NCBI GenBank assembly: GCA_938038175.1
Contig: CALHRQ010000195.1
Span: 1-37,182, forward strand
Source of the DNA: an uncultured Granulosicoccaceae bacterium
Lineage (GTDB): Bacteria > Pseudomonadota > Gammaproteobacteria > Granulosicoccales > Granulosicoccaceae
DNA length: 37,182 bases
Direction: 5' to 3'
Shown here: positions 20,338 through 23,812 of the stretch, piece by piece
How positions within the stretch are numbered: the stretch's first letter is position 1
Layout of the letters: every line of letters starts with the position of its first letter
Program-made: the position numbers and the translations under genes
The notes under the pieces: generated by a model
Told to the model about the DNA's origin: nothing
Database searches by the model: none
Seen by the model: only the letters and a program-made list of their open reading frames with translations

Positions 20338-21207
20338 TTAGTCGAGCTTATGTTTCTTTTGCAGTAACAGCCCAAAATTGTATAAATCCTTGCGCGGCTG
20401 ACCCGTTATTTCGCTTGCACACTTGGCGGCACTCTTGAGTGGAAGGTACGTCAGTAAAGTGCTCATTAATTTTTCTTGATTCAGCTGCATTTCTGATGCA
20501 GCGCTCACCTCATCTGTCTTGCCCGACAAGATCAACACAAACTCACCACGTTGCTGTTGCGAGTCTCTCTGAAGTAACTCAGACACATCAGAAACGCTTG
20601 CACGCACGATAGTTTCAAATCGTTTGGTTAGCTCTCTTGCCATGGTCATTTCACGGCCCGCGCCAAAGCTTTGCTGTATATCCTGCAATGTTGCAGTAAT
20701 GCGATGCGGAGACTCATAAAGCACAACGGTATAGCCAGACGCCTCCAGTGTTGCCAGCCATTTTTGCCTGGCGTTGGTTTTCGCTGGGGGAAAGCCTGCG
20801 AAGATGAATCGGTCAGTAGGCAGTCCCGCAGCACAGATTGCAGCTGTGAGTGCACTCGCACCTGGTACAGGCGAAACGCGAATACCACGAGCCTGGCACA
20901 CACGTACCAATCGATAACCAGGATCACTGATCAAGGGCGTACCCGCATCACTAATTAATGCAGCAGAGCCTGTTGATTCAATGAAGTCGGCCACAGCCTC
21001 TGCAGCGATGGTTTCATTATGCTCATGCAGTGGCATAAGCGGAACGCTGATACCGTGATGCTGTAACAGTGGCTTACTGTGGCGTGTATCTTCAGCATAG
21101 ATGCGTTTGCAACGCTTTAACGTTTCTATTGCACGTAAAGTAACATCATCACGGTTACCAATTGGTGTGGCGACGATGTAAAGGGTATGCTCTGCTGCTA
21201 CAACCAT
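20338..21207 (-). CDS. rsmI: 16S rRNA (cytidine(1402)-2'-O)-methyltransferase
   Basis: HTLYIVATPIGNRDDVTLRAIETL, AEDTRHSKPLL, ISDAGTPLISDPGYRLV. Start chosen at MVVAAEHTLYI rather than 21291. Confidence 0.97.
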   Translation of the reverse strand: MVVAAEHTLYIVATPIGNRDDVTLRAIETLKRCKRIYAEDTRHSKPLLQHHGISVPLMPLHEHNETIAAEAVADFIESTGSAALISDAGTPLISDPGYRLVRVCQARGIRVSPVPGASALTAAICAAGLPTDRFIFAGFPPAKTNARQKWLATLEASGYTVVLYESPHRITATLQDIQQSFGAGREMTMARELTKRFETIVRASVSDVSELLQRDSQQQRGEFVLILSGKTDEVSAASEMQLNQEKLMSTLLTYLPLKSAAKCASEITGQPRKDLYNFGLLLQKKHKLD

Positions 21208-21300
21208 AGTATTGCTATAGCCGTAATATATAATGTGTTCACGGTAATGCCTGATGCGAGTGTAAAACTCGCTCCAAACGCCAAGGCCCATAAATACATC

Positions 21301-23247
21301 ATGATGACATTCATTCGCTTTCGCACACTTATATTACTTGTTGCGTTGCTTGCAGCGCTTAACGCCTGCGCCAAGCCTGCACCAACATTGCCAAGCAATC
21401 CATTTAACGGCAGGGTAACAGACAACCGCGCTCTTAACCTGCTCAATCAGGGCAAACCCGAAGCGGCCGCTGATTATTACAGCCGCCGTGCTGAACGCAG
21501 TACTAACATCGAACAAAAAGAAGAATTCCAGGTGATTGCCGCTGAAATCCTGTTTGATCGTGCCATGATCGACCCCGGGCAAGCTAAACTCGATGCATTG
21601 CCTGAGCGAATGAGCACACCCTCTTTACAACATCGCAGAGACATCGTATTTGCGAAAAGTCTCTTATTTAGTAACCAGGCAGCGGATGCACTCACAGCCC
21701 TTCCTTTGCCAGAAGACATTGAATCTCCACTGGATCGTGCCCGTGTCTACGAGACCAGAGCACAATCATTCAATAACTTGAATGACCCGGACAACGAACT
21801 TATTGCGCGAATCGGTCTGGAAAATCAATTGAGTGATGAAAACATCATCGACAAAAATCATCAACAAATCTGGAGCATGCTCACCTCCCAGCCCTCAGAA
21901 ACGATCCGCAGTCTGACCACCAATGTACGTGGCGATACGTATCAGGGTTGGCTGGCTTTGGCACTGGCTTATAACGAGGCCGGTACTAACGCGCCACTGC
22001 GCGCTCAGAAACTCGATCAGTGGCGCACGTTGTTCACAACTCATCCGGCTAATGGTCGTTTCTTGCCACGGATATATGAAACCGGCGGGCCCAGAAGCTT
22101 TGAAGCCCCACTGGATGGCAACGTCGACCAAATAGCGATTTTGCTACCCCTGTCCGCTGCACGCATTGATGCGGTTGCAGCAGCCATCCGAGATGGCATC
22201 ATCACCGCCCATCAAAATGCACCAAACCAGTTTGACCCACCTAATTTACGTTTTTATGATGTTGGTGAAAACGCAGCCTTTGTCAGAACGGCTTATCAGG
22301 ATGCAGTCAATGACGGTGCCAGCGCAGTTATCGGACCACTCCGTAAAGAGGCAGTGTCTGCCATTGTCACTTTGCGCGATTTACCCGTGCCGACACTCAC
22401 GCTTAACACCGTAGATGAATCGCTCAATGCCGGAGATATCAACTCGAAAGTTATTCAGTTTGGACTATCACCAGAAGACGAGGCTCAATCAGCGGCCTCA
22501 CGCGCGATAGCACTATCATTGCGTAATGCTATCGTTTTACAGTCTGATGATTCGCGTGGTGATCGTGAGGCGCGCGCTTTTCAAAATGCCATGTTCAGTC
22601 GTGGTGGCGATGTGGTACACGTCGCTGTGTTGCCAAAAGATGAATACGATTACTCAGATCAAATTCGTGAAGCACTGGAAATCACGCAAAGCGATGATCG
22701 TTTTCGCAAGCTGTCGCGCTCGCTTGGGCGCAAGCTGTTTTTTGAACCCAGTATCCGCAACGATGTCGATGTTATCTTTCTGGCGGTGGGATCAGAACAG
22801 GCAAGATCAATAAGACCACAGCTGGATTTTTTCTATACCACTGCCATTCCCAGGCTTGGCACATCACGCATCGCCTCTGCTGATGATGACAAAAGAAAAA
22901 ACCGTGACTTGAATTCAATTTACTACCCGGATGCGCCGTGGCTGCTGCGCAAGTCCCTCAAGCAGGATCCTTTACGGCAACAAATACTGGCAAACTTCCC
23001 ATCGGCCGATGGTGTATATGCCAAGTTGTACGCTCTTGGGGCAGACGCCTATAAAGTAATTACCAATTTACCCAAGCTGACCGGCGGCGAACGCCTGGAA
23101 GGCTTTACTGGTGACCTGGAATTATCTGATGATGGACGTGTGCGACGTTTTCTGGACTGGGCACAATATCAGGAAGGTGAATCTGTTGGTGTTAAACGCA
23201 TCGAAGCTGAACCGCCAAAGCAGATTCGCACCAGCAACATTAACTAA
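21301..23247 (+). CDS. lpoA: Penicillin-binding protein activator LpoA, lipoprotein
   Basis: Lipobox LLAALNAC; C-terminal periplasmic-binding-like domain IAILLPLSAARIDAVAAAIRDGI, GPLRKEAVSAIV; divergent from rsmI, upstream of yraN. Confidence 0.9.
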   Translation: MMTFIRFRTLILLVALLAALNACAKPAPTLPSNPFNGRVTDNRALNLLNQGKPEAAADYYSRRAERSTNIEQKEEFQVIAAEILFDRAMIDPGQAKLDALPERMSTPSLQHRRDIVFAKSLLFSNQAADALTALPLPEDIESPLDRARVYETRAQSFNNLNDPDNELIARIGLENQLSDENIIDKNHQQIWSMLTSQPSETIRSLTTNVRGDTYQGWLALALAYNEAGTNAPLRAQKLDQWRTLFTTHPANGRFLPRIYETGGPRSFEAPLDGNVDQIAILLPLSAARIDAVAAAIRDGIITAHQNAPNQFDPPNLRFYDVGENAAFVRTAYQDAVNDGASAVIGPLRKEAVSAIVTLRDLPVPTLTLNTVDESLNAGDINSKVIQFGLSPEDEAQSAASRAIALSLRNAIVLQSDDSRGDREARAFQNAMFSRGGDVVHVAVLPKDEYDYSDQIREALEITQSDDRFRKLSRSLGRKLFFEPSIRNDVDVIFLAVGSEQARSIRPQLDFFYTTAIPRLGTSRIASADDDKRKNRDLNSIYYPDAPWLLRKSLKQDPLRQQILANFPSADGVYAKLYALGADAYKVITNLPKLTGGERLEGFTGDLELSDDGRVRRFLDWAQYQEGESVGVKRIEAEPPKQIRTSNIN

Positions 23248-23272: not shown

Positions 23273-23306
23273 ATTTAGAGTTTATAAAAATTTAGAGTTT
23301 ATAAAA
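23273..23306. repeat. Perfect 17-bp tandem duplication
   Basis: atttagagtttataaaa at 23273-23289 and again at 23290-23306. Confidence 0.95.
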
Positions 23307-23344
23307 ACATAACTGGCTAGTGCCCGTGACAAGGAGGTCACACT

Positions 23345-23812
23345 ATCAGCACAACAAAAATCGTCAAAGGCGGTGAAGCAGAAAGACTCGTTTGCGAGTA
23401 CTTGCAAACGCAGGGCTTGATATTGCTTACACAGAACTATCATTGCAGGCTGGGAGAAATAGACCTTATCATGCAATCAGCAGACAACGCCCTCGTGTTT
23501 GTAGAGGTGAGGTATCGTGAGGAGGATCATCATGGGGATGCGATTGAAACGGTCGACAATAAAAAACAACGAAAACTAAAACGTGCCGTATTGCATTACC
23601 TGCAACACCATGCAGATGCAACCGCTATTGCAAGGATCGATGTTGTCGGAATAAAACCAGCCCCCGCACGCATGCCTCATGACAAGGGCACTCAGCACAA
23701 AGAGCCACTACATAGCAACAGATCCCAACAAAATCTAACGGCACTAAGCGATGCACTTTTTCGTGGGCATGTGCTTAGGTGGATAATCAGCGCCGTAGAA
23801 GACGATGACTAA
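23345..23812 (+). CDS. yraN: YraN/UPF0102-family endonuclease-like protein; probable non-canonical start
   Basis: GGEAERLVCEYLQTQGLILLTQNYHCRLGEIDLIMQSADNALVFVEVRYR. Upstream in-frame stop TGA at 23327-23329; AAGGAGG at 23331-23337 is 7 nt before ATC at 23345. ORF-track start is TTG at 23402, which would truncate the domain. Confidence 0.85.
   Translation: MSTTKIVKGGEAERLVCEYLQTQGLILLTQNYHCRLGEIDLIMQSADNALVFVEVRYREEDHHGDAIETVDNKKQRKLKRAVLHYLQHHADATAIARIDVVGIKPAPARMPHDKGTQHKEPLHSNRSQQNLTALSDALFRGHVLRWIISAVEDDD

Follow-up and report, generated by a model that had tools for sequence, protein, structure and literature searches.

The window analysed here, namely the whole stretch of 37,182 nucleotides of DNA, carries on its forward strand the gene yraN at 23345..23812, which, when it is read from an ATC codon, encodes a protein of 155 aa of the YraN/UPF0102 type, a PD-(D/E)XK-type nuclease. 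This identity, proposed in an earlier note on the same DNA, is confirmed by profile searches, in which the window protein matches PF02021 with E=1.4e-26 and 94.3 bits (cut-off 23.6) and the NCBIfam profile NF009150 with 111.7 bits (cut-off 81), and the translation contains the nuclease motif E-(I)D...E-V-(K/R) in the form GEIDLIM...VFVEVRYR. Immediately upstream a TGA codon stands at 23327-23329, after which the yraN frame opens at 23330 and is read as CAA GGA GGT CAC ACT ATC AGC; in the frame with VKGGEAERLVCEYL, the codons ATC AGC continue as ACA ACA AAA ATC GTC AAA GGC GGT GAA. The Shine-Dalgarno (SD) sequence AAGGAGG lies at 23331-23337 on the forward strand and is separated by a spacer of 7 nt from the ATC at 23345-23347, the inferred start codon. 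It is also noted that a perfect tandem duplication of 17 nt (ATTTAGAGTTTATAAAA, 2.1 copies) occupies positions 23273-23307 of the window, between the upstream gene (21187-23247) and yraN.

The earlier note had described the frame as open only from 23330 after the TGA, with the SD 7 nt before the ATC and with no ATG or GTG upstream of the domain, and all of this agrees with the sequence, where TTG is absent from that region too. Between 23330 and TTG 23402 there is no in-frame ATG, GTG or TTG, and when all frames are considered the only such triplets in 23338-23401 are GTG 23373 and TTG 23392, neither of them in the yraN frame, so that a single indel cannot bring a standard start codon close to the SD. 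The earliest canonical in-frame codon is the TTG at 23402..23404 on the forward strand, which, as had been claimed, lies inside the conserved domain and has no SD. Being the first canonical in-frame start, this TTG might be supposed to give a short YraN, but initiation would then take place more than 60 nt downstream of a perfect SD and would cost the protein its conserved N-terminal segment GGEAERLVCEY, and none of the genus homologues is read as starting there. We rejected this very improbable start because it is in-domain, lacks an SD and is not used by the genus homologues. Still less credible is initiation in another frame at GTG 23320 or GTG 23326 with a subsequent +1 shift into the yraN frame. 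These codons sit on the 5' side of the hairpin described below and their frame ends at TGA 23374, but no SD precedes them and the frame is not conserved in relatives, and with both supports absent this candidate was rejected as well.

The gene was read in 26 genomes of the genus Granulosicoccus, that of the window included, and in nine of the same family. Following the suggestion of the earlier note that the homologues be inspected at the start codon, we found that the other 25 genus genes start with ATG (19), GTG (4) or TTG (2), located 3-9 nt past the same SD loop, with ATC present in none of them. The ATC of the window is located 8 nt past the loop, a spacing that is equal to that in L011, L017, L022 and L028. 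Since the relatives fill the slot behind this loop with ATG, GTG or TTG, the ATC, the sole plausible codon there, is the best candidate for the start. Among 154 yraN loci tested, a set which holds some duplicates and in which the locus of the window gene occurs twice, only that gene and a distant one, L100, have no canonical start before the domain, and the absence in the window gene exceeds chance. In the protein tree the window YraN branches, with support 99/96, as the sister of a group of five, where four of the five genes start with GTG. As this group contains all the GTG genes of the genus, weak initiation can be regarded as a trait of the branch, with AUC a further step.

The AUC start claimed in the earlier note is therefore the best reading of the given sequence, while the homologues are compatible also with a base-call error or with the loss of the start. 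If the sequence or the assembly were in error here, yraN would have an ordinary start, with a canonical codon at 23345. This is suggested by the canonical codons in the slot of all other genus homologues, by ATC being one base from ATG and by the source genome being a single fragmented MAG (3.25 Mb in 337 contigs, 63.8% complete). By contrast, the remainder of yraN is intact, infC shows non-AUG starts in this genus, and the distant yraN of L100 likewise has only ATC or ATT behind its SD, and we consider an error rather unlikely, although it is the alternative to be taken most seriously. A real start-loss mutation, by which yraN would be becoming a pseudogene in this lineage, is less probable again. 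The ATC is unique to the window among the 26 genus genomes and the terminal branch of the window YraN is fairly long (0.67), but 160 codons are open, the nuclease motif and the C-terminal motif are retained, the family score is typical for the genus and the SD hairpin is intact. Note that an error or a start loss at the ATC would void the claim of an AUC start and yet spare the conclusion on the hairpin.

Initiation at AUC in yraN is plausible in view of infC, which in this genus appears to use AUU or AUC: as judged by conserved position and SD, its start is ATT in 22 of the 26 genes found and ATC in the remaining four (L184-L187). Within the infC set (L163-L188) the ATC-start genes fall into two pairs, one from G003 and G017 and one from G008 and G019, the genomes of each pair being related. 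The distant gammaproteobacterial yraN at L100:2960-3130 (JABDBU010000002.1), which has no ATG, GTG or TTG before the domain, reads TAAAGGAGCTGT ATC ATT CCT, with ATC and ATT alone available behind AGGAG, and the nearest L100 homologues found all have canonical starts. An exact-DNA search of genome contigs for a second copy of the window locus gave none, where the records of very near genomes were possibly omitted. With a codon other than AUG, GUG and UUG behind a strong SD, and with no canonical codon that could take its place, the window gene has the sequence features of an AUN start discriminated by IF3, whereas the conservation between species that would go with such a start is not seen in the other 25 genus genes. 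Judging from these features, yraN most likely initiates at AUC, with IF3 discriminating against the codon, and IF3 control of yraN, if any, would be an addition confined to this genome.

The SD of yraN was called perfect in the earlier note. The SD is indeed real, but this account is incomplete, for the SD forms the loop of a conserved and covarying hairpin of the CsrA/RsmA type. The hairpin, GTGAC[AAGGAG]GTCAC at 23326..23341 on the forward strand, appears both in the MFE and in the centroid folds and is supported by homologues and covariation; its stem arms are at 23326-23330 and 23337-23341 and its ANGGAN hexaloop at 23331-23336, so that AAGGAGG fills the loop and extends by one base into the 3' arm. 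An ANGGAN hexaloop on a stem of 3-6 bp is present at the yraN SD in 25 of the 26 genus genes, the exception being L045, where a GGAC/GTCC stem bears a loop of 8 nt instead of 6 nt. The stems differ widely in sequence, with GTGAC/GTCAC, GGAC/GTCC, AGGC/GCCT, GATC/GATC, CGAC/GTCG, GGACC/GGTCC and ATTGAC/GTCAAT all occurring in the genus, whereas the closing C-G pair, the loop A and the GGA are invariant and loop positions 2 and 6 vary. In the alignment of the yraN hairpins 80% of the cells are paired versus 57% after shuffling, a pairing that is inflated somewhat because each row was taken as the longest stem among the ANGGAN sites of the leader, and the covariation score is 0.592 versus 0.180 for shuffled alignments (0/500 reaching it) and no more than 0.174 when the partners are slid. 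The selection of the longest stem explains neither the constant spacing from the start codon nor the fact that the hairpin recurs in 25 genomes.

Of 345 ANGGAN sites in the genus loci only 36 have at least 3 pairs, the 25 yraN sites included, and in a comparison scan of 400 kb of the relative G017 (ORFs of at least 150 codons; hairpin of at least 4 pairs, 3-9 nt before the start) a hairpin precedes the start in 2 of 498 ORFs. The overall fold energy of the leader is not unusual (z -0.15), and therefore the case for the hairpin is built on conservation and not on energy. Below the main hairpin a longer stem-loop, in which the AUC is also paired, is weakly predicted at 23313..23350 on the forward strand for this sequence only, with a z-score of -0.4.

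The high-affinity Csr/Rsm site, as determined by NMR, is a stem topped immediately by an ANGGAX hexaloop, in which the adenines are stacked on the C-G pair that closes the stem and N and X are looped out (PMC4005645). The yraN hairpin has this form, an ANGGAN hexaloop directly on its stem; the stem is strongly conserved as a structure, and the site overlaps the SD. Moreover, the csrA gene is found in all 27 genus genomes, its copy in the genome of the window being intact, while in a relative one csrA copy (G001:C229:2274-2429) is interrupted by an in-frame TAA. Because a conserved hairpin with a covarying stem presents the SD in its loop, CsrA is the more probable control of yraN. It could be argued instead that the hairpin merely keeps the SD accessible in its loop and that CsrA is uninvolved: a looped SD is open to the ribosome, and CsrA binding at yraN is deduced from sequence. 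However, the loop variants ATGGAG, ACGGAG, AAGGAC and AAGGAA weaken the SD and keep ANGGAN, and the variation at loop positions 2 and 6 is of a kind tolerated by a CsrA site and not favoured by an SD alone, which supports the CsrA reading; in addition, the hairpin recurs at comM and not at infC or csrA. An accessible SD with no role for CsrA is therefore an unlikely explanation.

A 2024 preprint by Hardy et al., as reported in PMC12455585, describes YraN as a helicase-associated nuclease, which together with ComM, a helicase, may help transforming DNA to be integrated, and because of this association a hairpin at comM was tested as a prediction. The same ANGGAN hairpin is present at the comM SD in all 20 genus loci whose comM start is readable (L189-L207, L209), as GAAC[ANGGAN]GTTC or a variant, 11-14 nt upstream of the start, with covariation and conservation of the structure in the outer pairs only. 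In the same genomes it is present in 0 of 26 infC and 0 of 8 csrA control loci. Beyond the genus the comM hairpin is mostly absent; in another genus of the family, the comM genes L360 and L367 (of G034 and G031, respectively) have a GAC[AAGGAT]GTC hairpin that overlaps the comM start codon. In the incomplete bin of the window comM was sought and not found, so that for this genome the comM half of the reading is taken from the relatives. As a further target, comEC gave isolated matches in 4 of 27 loci, none recurring at its SD or start. In dprA the start codon itself is inside the ANGGAN loop in 11 of 23 genus loci (L216-L220, L224, L225, L228, L230, L233, L234), for example as TATC[ATGGAA]GATA and variants, whereas in L237 the hairpin is ahead of the start; this arrangement is only a lead, because the loop doubles as coding sequence. 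A 26-position model of the hairpin, tried for a wider regulon, matched yraN and comM and also many places without a start nearby, being too short to be specific, and was rejected.

Our main reading, to which we give a probability of about 0.7, is that the start region of yraN is an SD placed in a CsrA/RsmA hairpin, with comM sharing the operator and with AUC in the start slot in this genome. Both yraN and comM would then most likely be repressed by CsrA. With the yraN SD displayed in the hexaloop, CsrA would bind the ANGGAN loop and block 30S binding, repressing YraN, and the repression would be lifted once CsrA is titrated away; an operator shared with comM would place two proteins of natural transformation, the helicase ComM and the nuclease YraN, under joint control. 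The AUC in the start slot would be used by the ribosome at low efficiency, with IF3 discriminating against it, and the pairing of the AUC in the lower stem of the predicted fold, a feature of the model that conservation does not back, may reduce initiation further. A wider proposal, which we put forward only tentatively, is that in Granulosicoccus CsrA directly controls the recombination step of natural transformation, carried out by ComM and YraN and perhaps DprA, by way of hairpins with the SD in the loop, and that in the lineage of the window yraN is doubly locked, its AUC start being discriminated against by IF3.

In the literature searched neither yraN nor comM was found as a CsrA target, and the putative genus-wide CsrA-type operator at their starts would be a known type of regulation with genes newly linked to it. 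Natural transformation spreads genes among bacteria, and the timing of its recombination step is poorly known; a CsrA-type operator on comM and yraN would tie the global regulator CsrA directly to DNA integration. If the AUC start is real, it would belong to a small number of natural AUN starts in genes other than infC, and would illustrate again that gene callers cut such genes short.

The yraN start can be compared with several known systems. It shares a near-cognate AUC behind a good SD with infC, which starts with ATT in E. coli and with ATC in Streptomyces and is autoregulated through IF3 (PMC5472188), and four infC genes of this genus use the very ATC codon of yraN. Unlike infC, the ATC of yraN is not conserved between species, and the feedback logic of infC is absent because YraN is not IF3. 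Like sigR of Streptomyces, which starts with GTC under IF3 repression, yraN has a putative non-canonical start outside infC that is overlooked by gene callers, whereas the sigR system is described as highly conserved across Streptomyces (PMC5472188) and the yraN ATC is present in one genome only. In Acinetobacter baylyi, truncation of csrA is reported to lower stationary-phase competence more than 1,000-fold (PMC12442408), where the passages concerned name no direct target. The direction does not match that expected here, since a site covering the SD predicts repression of comM and yraN, but the reported effect makes a link between Csr and natural transformation not far-fetched. There is a likeness also to the mRNAs repressed by CsrA/RsmA, such as E. 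coli hfq and the RsmE targets of Pseudomonas (PMC4005645): a single predicted site is seen at yraN of the window, to which CsrA would presumably bind, and, as in those mRNAs, the same ANGGAN hexaloop on a C-G-closed stem covers the SD in a genome that likewise carries csrA.
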